The notes below the pieces were generated by a model. The model had not been told where the DNA came from. It saw only the letters and a list, made by a program, of their open reading frames with translations, and did not search any database. 52,199 nt of DNA, taken from assembly GCA_002070605.1 (NCBI GenBank), contig MWDO01000019.1, forward strand, positions 1-52,199. Reading direction: 5' to 3'. Made by a program: the position numbers and the translations under genes. This stretch comes from Spirochaetes bacterium ADurb.Bin133. Lineage in GTDB: Bacteria > Spirochaetota > GWE2-31-10 > MWDO01. Shown piece after piece: positions 1-47,536 of this stretch (position 1 is its first letter; each line of letters begins with the position of its first letter).

Positions 1-407
1 ATCGAAAGCGACATCATAGGCTTCGAGCCTGTATAGATGGATGATGTTTAGTCGCAATAGCAGATCTTAATCAAACATTTTATAAGGAGGCGCGATGACA
101 ATTATTAAGTAAGTATAAATTGACCTTTAGCTGTTTTACTATAGTATGTAGAAATAAAGCAGGTTAATTTTATTTTTAAAGAGTTTAGTTTATTCAAAAA
201 AACAAAGATTATTGTTGACTTTTACCATAGATGAAGCTATATGCGGCGCCGCGCTACCCGATAGAAATTCTACGCATATGGAGCTACATATGCGCCGCGC
301 CGTTCCTCAATAAAAAATTGACACATATGACGGCGCGCGAATGCCTTACGCGTAAGATCCCCGCTTGGGCGCATCTATTTTGACACATATGCGTCGGTCG
401 GTCGACG
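1..407. other. Left-edge gene-poor region with CATATG repeat units
   Basis: No full gene is visible. Frame 1 reads eleven sense codons to a TAG at 34-36 and could be the tail of a gene cut by the window edge. A strong Shine-Dalgarno (AAGGAGG, 84-90) precedes an ATG at 95 that opens only five codons before TAA at 110-112, so it is a mini-ORF or the relic of a truncated gene. From about 230 to 398 there are CATATG-centred repeat units, with hexamers at 275, 287, 324 and 386, separated by GC-rich segments of the same type as the array at 37998-38258. No terminal inverted repeat was found here. Confidence 0.5.
230..398. repeat. CATATG repeat array, copy 1
   Basis: At least two tandem units of about 49 bp are visible. 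Each has a GAGCT or GAAGCT start, a GC-rich middle with CGCCGCG, a TCCTCAAT-like stretch and an end in TTGACACATATG or TACGCATATG. The units match those at 5027-5079, 17146-17196 and (inverted) 37998-38258. The array lies just downstream of the TPM gene, which is read towards it. Confidence 0.75.
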
Positions 408-4995: not shown

Positions 4996-5148
4996 GTAAT
5001 CCGTCGGTATTTTGAGGATTGACACATATGGGACTGCATAACCGCCGCGCCGCTCCCCGATGAAAATTTGACACATATGGTATTAAGGATAAAATTCGAC
5101 GCATATGCGTTGAATTTCTCTCCCCGCGTCAAAAAACCGACGGGATAC
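4996..5148. mobile_element. MITE-like element with terminal inverted repeats
   Basis: The left end reads GTAATCCGTCGGTATTTTG and the right end reads AAAAAACCGACGGGATAC, which are imperfect inverted repeats of each other. Inside are CATATG sites at 5025, 5074 and 5102 and one GC-rich spacer unit (CCGCCGCGCCGCTCCCCGAT). It is 153 bp long with no coding capacity. The 70-codon open frame crossing it is just the translated repeat. Confidence 0.7.
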
Positions 5149-5418: not shown

Positions 5419-5807
5419 ATTCGCGCCCCGCGCGTATGCGAGGGGAAATCGAGGGTTGCGCGCTCCTCATAAAATTCGACGCATATGCGACGCGATAAAA
5501 GCGGGAATTCCCGTTTTGAATATACTAAAACACTAAATCATCCTTCATACCGGGACCTTATTGGGACTCGCGCCGCGCCTCGACGAAAAAATTGACACAT
5601 ATGGGGGCATAGAATTCTTGGGAAGAAATTTGACACATATGTGTCAAATTCCCCCGAGCTATAAAAAAGCGCCATATGCGTTAAATTCCCCTACGATAAA
5701 AAATTAACGCATATGATATCGTCGTAATTGATCGTTCCTACAATGCGCCGATATTCCGAGCTTTCCAAGCAAAAATAAAAAAATTAGCCCAAATTATCAA
5801 AAAAAAG
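5419..5807. repeat. Repeat-rich intergenic region
   Basis: No gene is visible in this gap. It holds CATATG sites at 5482, 5598, 5636, 5673 and 5710, a perfect 24-bp palindrome centred on the third of these (5627-5650), a GC-rich unit fragment (5570-5590), and the first copy of a 35-bp repeat with a CGGGAATTCCCG palindrome (5502-5536). No terminal inverted repeats were found. Confidence 0.7.
5502..5536 (-). repeat. 35-bp palindrome-ended repeat, copy 1
   Basis: Read on the minus strand, this is a TTAGTGTTTTAGTATATTC stretch followed by AAAA and CGGGAATTCCCG. It matches 45178-45212 with about four differences, far beyond chance for two sites 40 kb apart. Confidence 0.75.
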
Positions 5808-10423: not shown

Positions 10424-12511
10424 ATGGCTAGATGCGGACGTTACGACGAGTGTCCTTTTTTAAAATTATTTGACGGAAAACGTCCCGAAATACAAGAAAA
10501 ATGGAAAAAAGAGTATTGTAACGACAGCGTAAAAAGTAAAAAATACTGCCGCCGTATAAAATATCTTGAACGGGAAAAGAGAGAACCTGTAGATAATTAC
10601 GCGCCAAGCGGCTCGTATATGACAAGCCGTTTTACTTATAACCTTACTAATACCGACGAAATTCAAGAAAACAAAGTTCCAAACGCTCTTTTAGCGTATT
10701 TGCTGCTCGGGAAAGTTTTTACAATGGCGGCTTTTTTCGTTGTAAATAGTCTATACGGTTTTTTTGGAAACATAAAAAACCTTTTGGAATATATGGTAAA
10801 TCCCGGTTTACTCTTGTTCTTTTATCCCGCTATAGCGCTTATTTGCGTTTTAGGCATTCAAAGACTAAAAAAACTTACGGCAAACTACAATAAGGGCAAG
10901 GTACTCGATTTTGAAATACTCAAATATATTACTTTTTTACAAAGGATATTAATTTTATTTTTAGGTATTTTCCCTTTGCTTGAACCCCTAACGCTCCGTT
11001 TTTGCAGTTTTACGCTCGCGCCTATAAAAATCTTCGGAATAGCAATGACTCAAACCTTTAGCACATTTGCATTTACCCTTGCTTTTTATATTATATTTAT
11101 TCAAAGAATTGAACGATTTGTTCAATTCTTACCTTTTTTAGACGAACGCAGGGCGATGTCGTTTACAATAAAGTTTCTTTTCGTTGTTGGTTTTGCAGCT
11201 ATCGCATTATGCGCGCTTTTCATGGCGTTATTTGCAAACTTCGACAAAATTACGTGCGAAAACTTTTTCCGCCATATGTCGACAAATGTAGCGCGCGCAT
11301 TTATTCTAGGGTTCGTAATCTTAATGACAGAAGTATATCTTCTATTAAAAAGCGTAACGCGGCGGTTAAAGATAATGAACAATTTTTCCTCAGGTCTCGT
11401 AAAAGGCGACTACTCAATAAAACCTATGCCCATAATTAGCCGCGAAGAGATCGGCGCGCTTATGAACGACATGAATACCCAGCTTGAAACTACAAGAACT
11501 CTTGTTGCTGGAATTCTTGAGAATATCGACTCCAACAAACTTATTTCTCAATCGCTTGTTTCCAACGTAAACGAAACTACAAGCGCCACCGACCGAATGA
11601 ACCAAAATATCGAAACGGTTAAGCAAAGTATGGGAAGCCAAGCGGCGGCGGTAGACGAAAGCGCGGCGACCGTAGAGCAGATTACGCATAATATAGAAAA
11701 GCTTAATAACAACATCGAAGCGCAAAGCGCCACAATTGTAGAATCGGCAAGCTCTATCGAGGAAATGGTAGCCAATATCCGCTCCGTTTCAAATATCCTC
11801 AAAGAGAACGCCGAAACAATGAAAGAGCTTTTAGAAGAGAGCGCTAATGCGAAAGACCTCGTGCAAAACGCTACTTTGATCAACGCCGAGGTGCAGGGCG
11901 CGAGCGAGGGGCTGCTTGAAGCCGCCGACGTTATTCAAAATATTGCAAGTCAAACAAACCTGCTCGCGATGAACGCGGCGATTGAAGCGGCGCACGCCGG
12001 CGAGTATGGAAAGGGCTTCGCAGTCGTCGCGGACGAGATCAGAAAACTTGCCGAAGAGTCAAGCGGGCAAGGAAAAAGTATTTCAAACGTTTTGCAATCG
12101 CTTAAAGATAAAATTGCCGGTATCTCGACCGCTACGACCGACGTCGATAATCAATTTATACAGATGCAGGAAAAAATTACCAAACTCGACAATCAAGAGC
12201 GGATTATCCAAAACGCAATGCGCGAGCAAGCGTCGGGCGGAGCGGAGCTTTTAGAAGCGATAAAGCAAATAAATAATATTACCGAAAACGTCAAGTCCGG
12301 CTCGGCGGAGATGCTTGCGGGAAGCAGAGAGATTTCAAACGAAATGATAAAACTCGTAAATTCCACTAGCGAAATAAATATAAATATGGATCTGATGCTT
12401 GACGGGACAAAGCAGATTGCGTCTGCCGTCCGCGAAATACGCGAAGTTGCCAAAGCAAACGAAGCGGGAATAGATAAACTTGACGATATTACAAAACCGT
12501 TAAAAATTTAA
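10424..12511 (+). CDS. Chemoreceptor with N-terminal four-Cys motif, paralogue A
   Basis: The 695-aa protein starts with a cytoplasmic segment carrying Cys4, Cys10, Cys32 and Cys42 in a CGRYDECPF...YC...YCRR pattern, then about six hydrophobic helices (roughly 85-310), a HAMP-like linker ([12 protein letters not shown]) and an MCP signalling domain with the tip [20 protein letters not shown]. There is no periplasmic sensor domain, so sensing is likely within the membrane or by the Cys module. A similar short Cys motif is found, from memory, at the N-terminus of assorted signalling proteins in other bacteria; metal or redox sensing is inference. AAGGAG precedes the ATG. It is the first of three tandem paralogues. 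Confidence 0.88.
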
Positions 12512-12580
12512 AATAATAAATTTGAGTTTTGGAAAGTTCTTTGTTATATTATATTACATTAAAGTAATAAAGGAGGTCTT

Positions 12581-14668
12581 ATGGCCAGATGCGAGCGTTA
12601 CGACGAATGTCCTTTTTTAAAGTTATTTGACGGAAAGCGTCCAGAAGCGCAAGAAAAATGGAAAAAAGAGTATTGTAACGACAGCGCAAAAAGTAAAAAA
12701 TACTGTCGTCGTATAAAATATCTTGAGCGGGAAAAGAGAGAGCCTGTCGATAATTATACCCCAAGCGGCTCGTATATGACAAGCAAATTTACTTACAACC
12801 TTACGAACGTAGACGAGGCGCGGGAAGTTGAAACTCCGACCATAATTTTAGCGTTCCTTTTAGCGGGAAAATTTGTTTCAACGGCGGCCGCGTTTGTTAC
12901 GAATATTTTATTCGGTTTTTTTGGAGACATAAAAAACCTCGTAGAATATACTTTTAACCCCGGATTACTCTTTTTCTTCTATCCGGTTGCGATACTTGTC
13001 TGTCTTTCAGGATTTATACGTCTTAAAAAACTTGTCGCCGGTTATAACAGGGGCGAAACGCTTGATCACGAAATTCTAAAATTTACAAAAATTTGGCAGG
13101 TATCATTAATTTTTATTTTGGCTCTTCTCCCATTATTTGAGCCTTTAACGCTAAAGTTTTGCAGTTTTACATTAGAATCCATAGAGATTTTCGGATTAGT
13201 AATGGCAAGCGTTTTTAGCGTATACACGTTCAATCTTATCATATACATTTTATTTACCCGAAGGATTGAAAGGTTTCTTCAGTTTTTACCTTTCTTGGAT
13301 GAACATAGAAATATGGCTTTAAAAGCAAAATTTATTCTGGTAATGGCGTTCTCGTCTGCCGGAATGGCGAGTCTTTTTGCCGCTTTAATTGCGAATTTTG
13401 ACAAAATTACGCGCGAAAACTTTTTTGCGTACGCTTCGACAAATGTTTTACCCGCATTTATCTTGGGTATCGCAGTCGTAATCGGAGAGTTATATCTTGT
13501 GCTAAGCAGCGTAATTCACCGGATAAAAATAATAAACAAATTTTCAAGCAATATGGCAAATGGAGACTACTCCTCTCCGCTTATGCCCATTCTCAGCCGC
13601 GAAGAGATTGGCGCGCTTATGAACGACATGAATGTTCAGCTTGAAACTACAAGACTTCTTATTACCGCGATTCTTGAGAATATCGACTCCAACAAACTTA
13701 TTTCTCAATCGCTTGTTTCCAACGCGAACGAAACTACAAACGCTACAGATAGAATGAACCAAAATATCGAAACGGTTAAACAAAGTATGGAGAGTCAAGC
13801 GGCGGCGGTAAATGAAAGCGCGGCGACAGTAAACCAGATTACGTATAATATCGAAAATCTTAATAACAATATCGAAGTTCAAAGCGCCACAATTGTAGAG
13901 TCGGCAAGCTCTATCGAGGAGATGGTAGCCAATATTCGCTCTGTTTCAAATATCCTCAATGAAAATGCAGAGACCATGAAAAACCTTTTAGAAGAGAGCG
14001 CTAACGCTAAAAATCTCGTACAAAACGCTACTTTGATCAACGCCGAGGTGCAGGGCGCAAGCGAGGGACTGCTCGAAGCCGCCGCCATTATTCAAAATAT
14101 TGCAAGTCAAACAAACCTGCTCGCGATGAACGCGGCGATTGAAGCGGCTCACGCCGGCGATTATGGAAAGGGCTTCGCAGTCGTCGCAGACGAGATCAGA
14201 AAACTTGCCGAAGAGTCAAGCGAACAGGGGAAAAGTATTTCCAACGTTTTACAATCGCTTAAAGATAAAATTACCGGTATCTCAACCGTTACGACCGACG
14301 TCGACAATCAATTTATACAGATGCAAGAACAAATTACCAAACTTGATAATCAAGAGCGGATTATCCAAAACGCAATGCGCGAGCAAGCGTCGGGCGGAGC
14401 GGAGCTTTTAGAAGCGATAAAGCAAATAAGCGCTATTACCGAAAACGTCAAGTCCGGCTCGGCGGAGATGCTTGAGGGAAGCAAAGAGATTTCAAACGAA
14501 ATGGCAAAACTCGTAGATTCCACTAACGAAATAAATATAAGTATGGATCTGATGCTTGACGGTACGAAGCAAATCGCATCCGCCGTCCGCGAAATAAGCG
14601 AAGTCGCCGAAGCAAACGAGGCGGGAATAGATAAACTTGACGGAGTTACAAAAGCGTTAAAAATTTGA
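12581..14668 (+). CDS. Chemoreceptor with N-terminal four-Cys motif, paralogue B
   Basis: This 695-aa paralogue of the preceding gene has the same four cysteines (4, 10, 32, 42), the same [11 protein letters not shown] membrane stretch and the same signalling domain. The cytoplasmic half is nearly identical at the protein level, while the membrane part has drifted, which is where any difference in stimulus would lie. AAAGGAGG provides a strong ribosome site. The 69-bp gap before it matches the sequence around the mobile element that follows this gene and can be read as a related empty site. Confidence 0.88.
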
Positions 14669-14684
14669 AATAATATAGAACTTT

Positions 14685-14811
14685 GTAGCCCTTTAGTTTT
14701 TTGGGGTTGGGGAAATGACACATATGGCGCTTGCAGTTAAATTGACACATATGATACAAATATTTTTAATCGGTAAATTATTTGTTATTCCCCAAAAAAC
14801 TGACGAGTTAC
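14685..14811. mobile_element. MITE-like element with perfect 9-bp target duplication
   Basis: The left end is GTAGCCCTTTAGTTTTTTGG and the right end CCAAAAAACTGACGAGTTAC, inverted repeats with a few mismatches. The 9 bp TAGAACTTT occur immediately left (14676-14684) and right (14812-14820). The 127-bp interior has two CATATG sites (14721, 14748) and no gene. This is the cleanest member of the family and defines its ends. Confidence 0.82.
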
Positions 14812-14851
14812 TAGAACTTTGAAAAGTTCATTGCTAATACAAGGAGTTTTT

Positions 14852-16967: not shown

Positions 16968-17260
16968 GTAGCCCGTCGGTTTTTTGGGGAATAAAAAATA
17001 TTTGTTCCATATGTGTCAAAATTTAAGATAAAATATAGCGCCCATATGTGTCAATTTTTTTTAATGCATATGCGACGCGTCGATAACGCGCGACAATTGC
17101 CGCATAATAAAATGACACATATGATACCGAAAATAATTTGACACATATGAGCTGCATAGCCGCCGCGTCGCTCCTCGATGAAAATCGACGCATATGTGTC
17201 AATTTTTTTAAACGCATATACATCGAATTTCTCCCGTCCCCAAAAAACCAATAGGAATAC
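16968..17260. mobile_element. MITE-like element with internal CATATG array
   Basis: The left end GTAGCCCGTCGGTTTTTTGG and right end CCCCAAAAAACCAATAGGAA bound about 293 bp. Inside are six CATATG sites (17008, 17043, 17067, 17118, 17144, 17191), a variant spacer with GCGACAATTGCCGC (17090-17103) and a canonical GC-rich unit (17150-17185). The left flank TAGGACTTT is nearly the same as the flank of the 14685 element. The right flank is only weakly similar, so the target duplication has decayed or been rearranged. Confidence 0.72.
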
Positions 17261-21056: not shown

Positions 21057-21322
21057 TTTATATCCCCCTTATTATAATAATAAAAATATTTAATTCGGTC
21101 AAATGATAAATCTTTTTCTCGACAATTGTCGCGCTTAATATTTTTTTTGACACATATGTGTCAAATTTATAGGGGCTGTCTCAATCCGACGCATATGCTC
21201 CTTGCAATTAAATTGACATATATGAGATAAATATTTGTCATTTATTAAAAATTTATCCAAATTTTTGTACAACGTTTTCTACTTCTAGTTGTTATATATA
21301 TAAAAGAAAAGGAGAAAATTTT
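21057..21322. repeat. Intergenic region with CATATG and CAATTG palindromes
   Basis: The gap holds a GACAATTGTCGCGC palindrome (from 21121), a full TTTGACACATATGTGTCAAA palindrome around 21153-21158, and a second CATATG at 21192 in GACGC context. A left terminal inverted repeat was looked for and not found. Confidence 0.6.
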
Positions 21323-21838
21323 ATGAAAAACAAAAAACATCTATTTCACTTTATAGTGTCAGAATCTATGAATAAGAACGTCATAGATTTTCTACTAAAG
21401 GAGTTCAAAATTAATACGTTCAGCGAATTATTTGAAACTATGTTTCGCCTTATTGACAAAAAAATCTCAAAAATGAAGAGAGTAATCGGAAATCATCGCT
21501 CCGAATACGCCGTTATAGACAATACCGACGATAAAAGGTTGGATAAATACCTTAGAATCAGCGAAGCGGACTATCTTCAAATAAAAAGATGGCATTCCTT
21601 GTATAACGAATTCGGTATGGCTTCAACGGTTCGAGATATTATCTTGTTTTTTTATAACGGCGTTATGAAATACGGGTTGGAAGGATTTCTTGAGCTTGTT
21701 GGTAAGAAATTAAGGGTCGATAAGTTGGAAAAGGACTTTTTGGATAAAATGACACAACTGTTAAATATAACCGCTCAAAAACGGCTATTATACGAGCTCG
21801 TAATCGAAAATTACCCCCAATACGTCTACTCTACGTAA
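21323..21838 (+). CDS. Unknown 171-aa protein, possible tandem ribbon-helix-helix
   Basis: I do not recognise this gene. It has a good AAGGAG site. Residues 6-45 (FHFIVSESMNKNV...FSELFETMFRLI) and 77-113 (YLRISEADYLQIK...TVRDIILFF) each read as a short strand followed by two helices, which is how ribbon-helix-helix DNA-binding domains look; this is a visual inference only. It has no signal peptide or membrane helix. It lies between CATATG palindromes on its left and a lone copy of the mobile-element right end 11 bp past its stop, so it could be a passenger or a repeat-associated protein. Confidence 0.5.
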   Translation: MKNKKHLFHFIVSESMNKNVIDFLLKEFKINTFSELFETMFRLIDKKISKMKRVIGNHRSEYAVIDNTDDKRLDKYLRISEADYLQIKRWHSLYNEFGMASTVRDIILFFYNGVMKYGLEGFLELVGKKLRVDKLEKDFLDKMTQLLNITAQKRLLYELVIENYPQYVYST

Positions 21839-21848
21839 AATTATTTTT

Positions 21849-21875
21849 TATTCCTCAAAAAACCGACGGGAATAC
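21849..21875. repeat. Solitary terminal inverted repeat
   Basis: The sequence CCTCAAAAAACCGACGGG followed by AATAC is the right end of the mobile-element family. It abuts the stop codon of the leftward glycosidase gene (21875-21877). No matching left end was found nearby. Confidence 0.65.
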
Positions 21876-28626: not shown

Positions 28627-29042
28627 AATATTTACCCCAAGCGCCCGCTTCGTAGTTTAATATCAAATTCTCCGATATTTTACAATCTTATTTTAATAAA
28701 ATAAGCGCCCGACATTTTTTTGGGAATAAAAATATTTGTTTCATATGCGTCGAATTTGTTTATCATGGAAAGATAAGCCTATTGATGAAATAATGGCGTT
28801 AAATTTTACAAAGGTCGATAGCGAAGCATGGTTAGGGCATCCCTAACTTGCGCACGGAGAATAACGGCAATATCTTACCAAATTGACACATATGCGTTAA
28901 ACCAAAGACGCGTATGCGTCATAATCTTTCGGGAAATTTTTTGTCGTCCATATAATGTTGGGAACAAATAACATAAGGAGACAAATCAGTCCAACGTATG
29001 AAAATCCGAAATTCAAGTCTGCCTCGCTTTCTTGAGTTTATA
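28627..29042. other. Gene-poor region with degraded element and hairpin
   Basis: No gene is visible. A degraded left element end (GCGCCCGACATTTTTTTGGG, from 28705) leads to CATATG at 28742; a second site is at 28889 and a degenerate one lies near 28910. Between them is a perfect 7-bp hairpin GTTAGGG-CAT-CCCTAAC (28831-28847) without a T run. A TATAAT (28951-28956) and an AAGGAG (28975-28980) precede no convincing ORF and could be the relic of a lost gene. Confidence 0.5.
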
Positions 29043-30585: not shown

Positions 30586-31695
30586 CTACCTTATCATATC
30601 TTCCAACGCCTTCAATCCTCTGATAAATTCGTCGGGGCGGTCGTGGTGAATGTCGTGCATCGAGCCTTCGATATTGCCGATAAGCGCGTTGTTCGGCAAA
30701 AGTTTGTGAACGCGCTTTGCATCCTTGTCGTCGAGCGCCGCCATGAGAATGCCGTCTTCGTCGTAGTACGATTTTGAGCCTTTCGGTTTTGCGACGTGGA
30801 GAAACACCGACGGGCATTTGACCGCTTGCAACGTCTCGGCTTGGTTGAAGCCTTCAAACCACGAGAAGTCATAAAACATCAAACCGAATCGCAAATCGTA
30901 CTCGCCGTTGCCGTCCTGCATATTTGCGGCAAGCGTGTACAAATTGTTCAGTTGCGTGAACTCAGGATAATACCAAATTCTCGGAATAGTCCCGGGATTT
31001 TTTTCCAAATATTTCATCGCCGGATCTACGACTAAGAATTTCCATACGTCGGTTCCGCCTTGATTGAAATATTTTTGTATAAAATTATTTTTAATATAAT
31101 ACTTGGTATACGAGTCTTCTCCGCTTTCAAAAAAGTCGCGCATCAATTGGAAACCTTTGTACGCGAATGTTTTTTCCGCGCGACCTTTTTCCGTTGTGAA
31201 AAACGGCGCGTCTTCGATCAATAGCCCGTCGATTTTGTCGGGAGCATTGGCCGCTACCCACGTCGCCAAAAGTCCTCCCGACGAATGCCCGGAGATGATA
31301 ACGTTTTCGCCGACGACATTGTCGATAAACCAGATAATATCGGCGCCGTTTTTTAAGATAGGATATTTTTCAGGATTTTTGCTCGAACCTCCATGCCCGT
31401 AGCAATCGATCGCAAAAACGCGATAGCGCTTGACCAGATACGGCAATACGTTGGCGTAATCTTCCCACGTCGTTTCCTGACCGTGAATTAATAACAACGC
31501 CTTTTTATCGCTCGCGTTTTCTCCATAGTTGATAATAGAACCGTCGGGCAACGTTACCTGTTTTTCAACGACGCCTAACTTTTGAATCTTCTTTATTCTT
31601 TGCTTGGGCAGATTCATGTTGTACGATTTGAAGCTAAGTAAACCGACCGTTATCAAAACGATAACGCTCGCTAAAACAATTAATATTTTTTTCAT
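30586..31695 (-). CDS. Alpha/beta-fold hydrolase with membrane anchor
   Basis: The 369-aa protein has an N-terminal hydrophobic anchor (about residues 4-24). The hydrolase fold follows, with the oxyanion motif LLIHGQETTWEDY, the DCYGHGGS turn, the nucleophile elbow SGHSSGG and a late SMHDIHHDRPDEF likely holding the catalytic His. It is probably an esterase or lipase-type enzyme on the outer face of the inner membrane or exported; the substrate is unknown. Its ATG overlaps the stop of a short upstream frame in an AATGA arrangement. GC content is higher than in its direct neighbours, which may reflect separate acquisition. Confidence 0.82.
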   Translation of the reverse strand: MKKILIVLASVIVLITVGLLSFKSYNMNLPKQRIKKIQKLGVVEKQVTLPDGSIINYGENASDKKALLLIHGQETTWEDYANVLPYLVKRYRVFAIDCYGHGGSSKNPEKYPILKNGADIIWFIDNVVGENVIISGHSSGGLLATWVAANAPDKIDGLLIEDAPFFTTEKGRAEKTFAYKGFQLMRDFFESGEDSYTKYYIKNNFIQKYFNQGGTDVWKFLVVDPAMKYLEKNPGTIPRIWYYPEFTQLNNLYTLAANMQDGNGEYDLRFGLMFYDFSWFEGFNQAETLQAVKCPSVFLHVAKPKGSKSYYDEDGILMAALDDKDAKRVHKLLPNNALIGNIEGSMHDIHHDRPDEFIRGLKALEDMIR

Positions 31696-31831: not shown

Positions 31832-31896
31832 GTAATCTCCTTGCGATAAATGTAACGTTTTTTTTAAATTTAAGCAATGCAAATTATTATTTAAAA

Positions 31897-32071
31897 TCCT
31901 CGTCGGTTTTTTGGAGGCGGGAAAAATTGGACGCATATGTACTCCGTCAGTTTTTTGGAGGCGGAAAAAAATTGGACGCATATACGTTTTTAATTTAACG
32001 CATATGCGGCTTTGATTCGACGCATATGAAACAAATATTTTTATTCCCCCAAAAAAACCGCCGGGATACAT
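31897..32071. mobile_element. MITE-like element with duplicated left end
   Basis: The left end contains CTCGTCGGTTTTTTGGAGGC and is followed about 44 bp later by a second, near-identical copy (CTCCGTCAGTTTTTTGGAGG, from 31944). The right end is CCCCAAAAAAACCGCCGGGA before TAC at 32071. CATATG sites are at 31936, 32003 and 32025. No gene lies inside. Confidence 0.65.
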
Positions 32072-35327: not shown

Positions 35328-35506
35328 GTAAACCGTCAGTTTTTTGGGGTGGGGAAATGAGCGCATATGTGTCAAAAACAAAATTCGACGCATATGCGAC
35401 GCGGTCGCTCCTCGATGAAAAATGGACGCATATGGCGCTAAGAATAAAATGACACATATGGGACAGACATTTTAACCGGCAAATCCCCAAAATACCGACG
35501 GGTTAC
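35328..35506. mobile_element. MITE-like element
   Basis: The left end GTAAACCGTCAGTTTTTTGG and right end CCCCAAAATACCGACGGGTT (then AC) are inverted repeats. CATATG sites lie at 35364, 35391, 35429 and 35455, with a partial GC-rich unit (GGTCGCTCCTCGATGAAAAA). No target duplication is visible. It has no gene; the 94-codon frame crossing it is translated repeat. Confidence 0.72.
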
Positions 35507-37867: not shown

Positions 37868-37970
37868 GTTTAGATTCTGAAATGCGCAAACTCTACGATC
37901 TAACTCGCGCGATTGAAGTTTCTCCTTTTTGACGATCTGATTGCCGTTTTTGAACGAATTGCCGGCGATC

Positions 37971-38302
37971 AAGCGTCGGGTTCTTGGGGGATTGACACAT
38001 ATGTGTCGAATTTTCATCGGGGAACACAGCGCCGCATATACAACCCCATATGTGTCAATTTCTGTCAAGGAGCGACGCGGCGAGTATAGCTCCATATGTG
38101 TCAAATTATTCATCGAGGAGCGACGCGACGCATGCAGCTCCATATGTGTCATTTTAAGAGACCGCCGCCCTAACCTATCCATATGTGTCAAATTTTTATC
38201 GAGGAGTAGCCGCGGCGAGTATAGCTCCATATGTGTCAAAATAAATTTGACACATATGCGTCCGATATATTTCTCCCGCCCAAAAAACCGACTAAAAAGT
38301 AT
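37971..38302. mobile_element. Large MITE-like element containing a tandem CATATG array
   Basis: Degraded ends are visible: AAGCGTCGGGTTCTTGGGGG on the left and CCCAAAAAACCGACTAAAAA on the right. Between them CATATG occurs at 37998, 38047, 38093, 38141, 38180, 38228 and, inverted, 38253, with a period of 46-49 bp apart from one shorter unit. Most spacers carry GGAGC ... GCTCC arms that could form a hairpin. The 122-codon open frame across it is repeat translation. Confidence 0.7.
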
Positions 38303-44966: not shown

Positions 44967-45245
44967 AAACCGCCCGCCGAATAAGTAAAAAAATATTAAG
45001 GAAAACTATCATATATGCATCGAATTTGTTTCAATAATTTAATTATTATTTTAATATTTGTCAAGAAAATTATACATATTGTTGACCCGCCGGTTTTTTT
45101 GGGAAAAAAATGACACATATGAACAGACGTTTCCGACTTACTCTTAAGCGGCTCAAATTTAAGGGATATTGAGAACATTAGGTTTTTAGTATATTCGAAA
45201 CGGGAATTCCCGTATTCTCCCCGGACGATCGCTTCAAAAAAAATC
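44967..45245. other. Intergenic region with lone element end and 35-bp repeat
   Basis: A left mobile-element end (GACCCGCCGGTTTTTTTGGG, from 45084) leads to one CATATG at 45116. No right end follows. A degenerate CATATATGCATCGAATTTG lies near 45010. The second copy of the 35-bp palindrome-ended repeat is at 45178-45212. No gene is visible. Confidence 0.55.
45178..45212 (+). repeat. 35-bp palindrome-ended repeat, copy 2
   Basis: It reads TTAGGTTTTTAGTATATTCG, then AAA and CGGGAATTCCCG, and matches the minus strand of 5502-5536 with about four differences. Both copies lie in gaps that also contain CATATG sites. Confidence 0.75.
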
Positions 45246-47340: not shown

Positions 47341-47531
47341 AAAAAAACCCCGCAGATGCCGTGGCAAAGAGTAGTTTAGCGCCCGGATATAATCCAGGTG
47401 GGTCTCCTCAACTCTGCTTCTTATAATTTCGCAGGGCAGCCCGCAAAACAGATAATCGACAAAATTATACTGGAGTCCCTTAATAATAGGTTGAGCAGAA
47501 AACAATTCTCATTTCACCAACACCGCAGGGC
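47341..47531 (-). ncRNA. ssrS: 6S RNA
   Basis: The minus strand encodes a roughly 190-nt RNA. Its 5-prime arm GCCCTGCGGTGTTGGTG can pair with the 3-prime arm CCACGGCATCTGCGGGG as an imperfect closing stem, followed by a run of seven U. These ends resemble 6S RNA ends (compare the GCGGTTGGTGAGC and GGCGGCATCTC segments of the E. coli RNA, recalled from memory). A strong promoter precedes it, its length is typical, and it sits directly downstream of zapA, as in many bacteria. 6S RNA binds and sequesters the housekeeping RNA polymerase holoenzyme. Confidence 0.85.
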
Positions 47532-47536
47532 GCTTC

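Follow-up and report, generated by a model that had tools for sequence, protein, structure and literature searches.

The results indicate that short noncoding elements dispersed through the genome of Spirochaetes bacterium ADurb.Bin133 probably belong to a DNA-transposon family of two classes, one MITE-like and one carrying a gene for a 171-aa protein (ORF171), that have in common the end sequence GTANYCCGTCRGTTTTTTGGGG and a target duplication of 9 bp or, in some cases, 8 bp. We analyzed bases 1-52199 of contig 19 (52,199 nucleotides; 'the window') together with the draft genome to which it belongs (G000; 2.99 Mb, 103 contigs, 95.6% complete) and 60 relatives, with one draft genome per species in the comparison; the sole congener compared, G001, matches Spirochaetes MAG Go_SlDig_bin_318.

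All six paired elements to which a first-pass annotation of the window had assigned shared inverted ends were recovered, and the ends are not all that they have in common: every one also contains TTGACACATATG-type sequences, here termed boxes. The element at 14685-14811 (127 bp) has ends GTAGCCCTTTAGTTTTTTGGGG and GTAACTCGTCAGTTTTTTGGGG and two inner boxes, and the flanking duplication described for it is exact, with copies of TAGAACTTT at 14676-14684 and 14812-14820; this is the sole perfect duplication inside the window. The other paired elements lie at 4996-5148 (153 bp, three boxes, duplication decayed), 16968-17259 (292 bp, seven boxes), 31895-32069 (a composite nested element with left ends at 31895 and 31939 and a single right end), 35328-35506 (179 bp, four boxes) and 37968-38299 (332 bp, eight boxes; the end adjoining an sbcD-like gene is common to G001). 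The left ends of the 16968 and 14685 elements are at the same place behind tandem gene copies. Three further ends had been read as lone. That at 21849 in reality closes, on the right, a unit that holds the 171-aa gene; those at 28705 and 45084 are each the one recognisable end at their site, but boxes follow them, and they belong to decayed copies at 28704-28900 (left end, three boxes, right end not recognised) and 45082-45121 (left end, one box). Boxes are also clustered where no ends are recognisable: six at 5476-5715, four at 2837-2954, and two at 318-391, adjoining the repeat at the contig start. A core match at 31226, within a gene, unpaired and boxless, is probably due to chance.

The end core, CCGTCGGTTTTTTGGGG, has 16 matches in the window vs. 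0.17 expected (at most three mismatches), and 407 matches in G000 vs. none for the reversed pattern (at most two mismatches). Alignment of 116 ends shows that the full conserved end, GTANYCCGTCRGTTTTTTGGGG, starts five bases further out than the core. A scan of 43% of the genome counted 74 short end pairs, and we compared 67 distinct paired elements, with lengths of 70-332 bp; the median length of noncoding elements is 121 bp. Only 7% of ends fall within ORFs, though ORFs span 83% of the sequence. A preference of noncoding elements for promoter-side insertion was considered and rejected: 18, 33, and 10 lie in divergent, tandem, and convergent gaps, vs. 17, 34, and 10 expected from length, and placement thus tracks gap length. 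With a G+C content of 40%, compared with 39% in the window and 25% in flanks, elements are AT-rich in absolute terms but not relative to the genome; AT-richness is usual in MITEs but does not strictly define them. The proposed MITE nature of the noncoding elements is borne out by inverted ends, a length of about 70-330 bp, noncoding and intergenic character, hundreds of copies, and 9-bp duplications above chance. Among the 60 relatives the end is near-absent, with one or two matches apiece in five genomes; matches in relatives other than G001 are unpaired and boxless, and those in four distant genomes (L009, L010, L012, L013), which have neither pairing nor boxes, were discarded as chance. The end pattern has no match in IMG/VR. 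We conclude that the expansion of the end sequence is particular to the ADurb.Bin133 species.

Target duplications were assessed by comparing flanks genome-wide. A perfect 9-bp duplication at offset zero is present in 17 of the 67 paired elements, and an 8-bp duplication in six. Of the 31 elements whose two ends both carry CCGTCAG, 18 have duplications with at most one mismatch, vs. 0.67 expected (z = -11.4 when partners are shuffled); CCGTCGG elements give a z of -2.6, and gene-bearing copies one of -3.4. We conclude from the values for the three groups that CCGTCAG-type MITEs are young and that CCGTCGG-type elements and gene-bearing copies are old. When the flanks of the 14685 copy are joined, they align with the element-free gap at 12489-12600 behind the neighbouring tandem gene, a paralogous empty-site match, the only empty site seen, that is suggestive; the paralogues differ by small gaps, and the match is therefore no strict test. 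According to a hypothesis in which the repeats are REP- or BIME-like regulatory palindromes of the host that recombination, and not transposition, has dispersed, one would expect the intergenic location of ends and boxes, the mosaic interiors, and rearrangement breakpoints at element ends. The exact 9-bp duplications at 17 copies oppose this hypothesis, as they do REP/RAYT, and we consider it scarcely credible.

The statement that the window holds no full-length parent stands insofar as no transposase-bearing parent was found there; a gene-bearing sister, however, is present at about 21147-21874. In 1.28 Mb, or 43% of G000, a search between end pairs 400-6000 bp apart for the expected parent, with a transposase gene inside such ends, found none. 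Such pairs enclose ORF171 (two cases), HicA + DUF1902, GNAT, host genes, or nothing. At L238 17958-18769, a HicA toxin gene and its DUF1902 partner lie between two ends as cargo; at L265 2270-3455, two ends enclose a double GNAT acetyltransferase gene, the start codon of which comes directly after the left end. A candidate parent at C9:45814-46910, with ends 1.1 kb apart, proved to be two separate elements flanking what, by eye, resembles a toxin-antitoxin pair. Domain searches of the whole assembly detected none of PF01609, PF03050, PF12762, PF00665, and PF03400; for PF00872, they detected two IS256-type fragments with no copy of these ends adjoining. The 9-bp duplication suggests that the mover may be a DDE-type enzyme supplied in trans; both classes would have been moved by a transposase, lost or not found, that acted in trans on the ends.

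The gene-bearing member of the window occupies 21147-21874 (+) and comprises three boxes, a leader, the gene for the predicted 171-aa tandem ribbon-helix-helix (RHH) DNA-binding protein (ORF171, product P0001; 21323-21838, +), and a right end at 21853-21869 plus 5 bp; its left limit is approximate, because a left end is not recognisable. The right end begins about 14 bp past the stop codon, and the box cluster upstream of the gene (21147-21224), which includes TTGACACATATGTGTCAA, is a putative operator. ORF171 has 83 matches in G000, more than 50 of them full length; contig ends truncate many of the remainder. The genome contains some 60-80 gene-bearing units of about 0.7-0.9 kb, each with a single gene behind a conserved leader. 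Among 61 units inspected (that of the window and L110-L169), many have one end 150-350 bp upstream of the gene and a second some 14 bp past its stop codon, about a third have no recognisable end on one side, and a few retain clear 8-9-bp duplications. In the last 150 bp of the leader before the start codon, a stretch that includes TTGACACATATGTGTCAA, copies differ by 0.06-0.17 over most of the length, less than at synonymous sites. By inspection, the right ends of MITEs repeat the start of the ORF171 leader, as if the gene had been excised. The gene upstream of gene-bearing copies is divergent in 36 of 49 cases.

G001 contains an 82%-identical ORF171 copy between two such ends, adjoining sbcD- and mraZ-like genes, and end-like sequence is present beside some of the copies of its ORF171 homologues. 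The copy at L112 was considered as the same insertion as the G001 copy and was rejected: only the mraZ-side end is common, and the gene is in the reverse orientation. The sbcD- and mraZ-side ends (window 37968-38299, L112, and L170) are common to G001, and the genes joined across them differ, which marks a genome rearrangement with breakpoints at elements.

The ORF171 protein has no significant sequence match in Pfam, NCBIfam, PHROGs, or PDB, RHH families included, and neither P0001 nor its family was found in IMG/VR, phage, or plasmid records. An AlphaFold2 model computed with nine sequences has two beta-alpha-alpha units and a helical tail, at moderate confidence (pLDDT 70, pTM 0.73). The nearest solved folds in Foldseek are chains of the F relaxosome and VirC2, with weak E-values; the relaxosome chains, which we take to be TraY, have TM scores normalised by target of 0.49-0.58 and a best E of 0.28, and there is no PDB match at E 0.001. 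The nearest viral fold matches include RHH proteins. The model predicts that the ORF171 product is a tandem RHH DNA-binding protein and not a transposase. The presumed DNA-facing strands, KHLFHFIVS and DKYLRIS, are near-invariant among copies, and the copies therefore give no sign of diverging binding specificity. G005, which belongs to a different family of the order, contains five or more open tandem-RHH paralogues at dispersed sites (L083, L086, L089, L095, and L098), which have neither the box nor the ends of the ADurb.Bin133 family. A different reading of the protein is that it serves as recombinase in a transposon of a new kind, either as a small enzyme with an RHH fold or as the DNA-binding half of such an enzyme. 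ORF171 is indeed the only gene that is regularly found between ends, and end-like sequence accompanies some congener homologues; however, the modelled fold and the invariant residues resemble those of a pure DNA-binding protein, homologues are multi-copy in G005 without ends and box, and transposase copies normally decay. We regard this reading as highly improbable.

Genes borne on mobile DNA usually decay copy by copy. All 53 of 53 full-length ORF171 copies in the draft genome G000 are open, with no early stop and no frameshift. Between paralogues, median dN is 0.057 and dS, a simple count estimate, is 0.46 (smallest 0.18), giving a dN/dS of about 0.12, with copies that are non-independent if conversion acts among them. 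Neutral simulation at the observed divergence yields about four stops per copy, and the chance that all copies would be open is negligible. The ORF171 tree is star-like with short inner branches, and dS for other genes between G000 and G001 is about 0.6-1.05, a range that exceeds the 0.46 of ORF171, which dates the burst to a time somewhat after the two species separated. The copies thus derive from an old burst, and their open state at such divergence, together with the simulation, indicates that each seems since to have been kept by selection. Retention of each copy is unexpected for a transposase or a passenger.

These results bear on the hypothesis that the noncoding elements are an ordinary MITE family of an IS absent from the assembly, and that the RHH gene was captured once and is a mere passenger. 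Gene-bearing copies without a transposase, other genes between such ends (HicA + DUF1902 and the double GNAT), and the existence of MITEs that keep no transposase trace (PMC4596501) are consistent with it. A passenger, however, should decay, yet 53 of 53 copies are open at a dS of about 0.46, and the box common to the ORF171 leader and the MITEs indicates that the gene and the MITEs belong together; we consider the passenger hypothesis unlikely. Returning to a family of two classes with a selected gene, each gene copy would benefit the host or its own locus, because about four stops would be expected in every copy that evolved without selection. Why purifying selection should act on more than 50 similar copies that work in trans is not simply explained, and this counts against the explanation that we consider best.

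The box, TTGACACATATG(TGTCAA), has variants that include TTCGACGCATATG, occurs in either orientation with recurring spacers between copies, and frequently forms the palindrome TTGACACATATGTGTCAA; a GACGCATATGCGTC variant is another form. The noncoding elements are mosaics in which the same ends enclose one to eight boxes. Exact boxes number 791 in G000, 39 in G001, and 0-1 in five other relatives, and reversed controls give 0; 15% of boxes are inside ORFs, which span 83% of the sequence. A box is present about 125 bp upstream of nearly every ORF171 copy in G000, and 120-190 bp upstream of nearly all of the ORF171 homologues of about 40% identity. In G001, some box arrays lack these ends, one of them with five copies spaced at 22 bp upstream of a gene, and the box is therefore not simply a transposon part. 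At four G001 loci (L180, L181, L185, and L194), boxes lie within low-complexity, probably coding, GTCGTAGTCGTT-type sequence. From position and conservation, we infer that the box is a putative operator of the ORF171 protein. The RHH protein would bind the box, control its own promoter, and coat box arrays. A tentative extension, which we consider possible but would not assert, is a self-spreading operator network in which a tandem RHH repressor and about 1000 or more sites, selected copy by copy, would make mobile DNA a nucleoid or silencing system that spans the genome, and not a decaying parasite. Should the protein bind the box, the family would be a natural regulatory or chromatin-like network, built from mobile DNA, in a bacterium. 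More than 50 intact copies of a mobile-element gene are present in one genome, with the box scattered through intergenic gaps, and the gene points to a protein family that is matchless in Pfam and NCBIfam.

Other repeats and features were observed alongside the family. A second repeat, with ends CTAAGGTAAAAGT and CTATGGTAAAAGT and copies that are 98-100% identical, breaks at least ten contigs, including at the window start (copies at window 1-230, L271 1-222 (-), L037, L254, L239, L197, L202, L204, and L209). It seems to be inserted at boxes, contains promoter-like sequence, is predicted to encode a structured RNA (z -2.7), and has no match in Rfam; it is probably a young noncoding mobile element. 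The palindrome AACGGGAATTCCCGTT (window 5500-5515 and 45199-45214), often followed by TTGAATAT, recurs in G000 and G001. The window contains a 6S RNA gene at 47343-47534 (-). Three contig ends (L207 5', L202 3', and L210) have in common an IS-like stretch that starts with a helix-turn-helix (MEKIKNNEISKSEAARKLNCSRQW...) and has ends unlike those of the ORF171/MITE family.

Comparison with known systems begins with the ends. IS66-family elements have ends of the form GTAA... and an 8-bp duplication; the ends here also begin GTAA and are alike over some bases, whereas most duplications in the present family are 9 bp long, and G000 has no IS66 transposase domain. To our knowledge, the sequences of BOX elements differ from those of the present family. 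In the parts of the published account available to us, BOX elements of Streptococcus pneumoniae consist of end modules around variable inner modules, are 67-637 bp long, and are intergenic (PMC3049150), an organisation resembling the one seen here, in which the ends are fixed and the inner modules vary in number; the same parts describe neither a gene-bearing class nor a DNA-binding protein for the inner module (PMC3049150). BrickBuilt of Porphyromonas gingivalis is a MITE with a minisatellite of 23-nt units arranged head to tail without spacers (PMC4596501). Both families have a short repeated inner unit and no transposase remnant; unlike BrickBuilt, the present family has a conserved partner gene, and its boxes lie in both orientations with spacers that vary. 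MITEAba12 of Acinetobacter, about 110 bp with inverted ends, 9-bp duplications, and many copies, has a proposed resident parent in ISAba12, whose ends match and which has a DDE transposase (PMC6382973). The present family is like MITEAba12 in ends, 9-bp duplication, and copy number, but no such parent was found here, and its sisters carry the RHH gene. A single TraY chain comprises an entire RHH dimer fold, and TraY binds DNA at three sites (PMC12117103). ORF171 resembles TraY of the F plasmid, and VirC2, in having two RHH units per chain, with no sequence similarity detected; unlike them, its family was not found in phage or plasmid records and has at least 53 copies in one genome. Relative to BOX, as far as the available parts of its account extend, and to BrickBuilt and MITEAba12, what sets the present family apart is an RHH gene in the larger class, the presumed operator of which is repeated in the small class.
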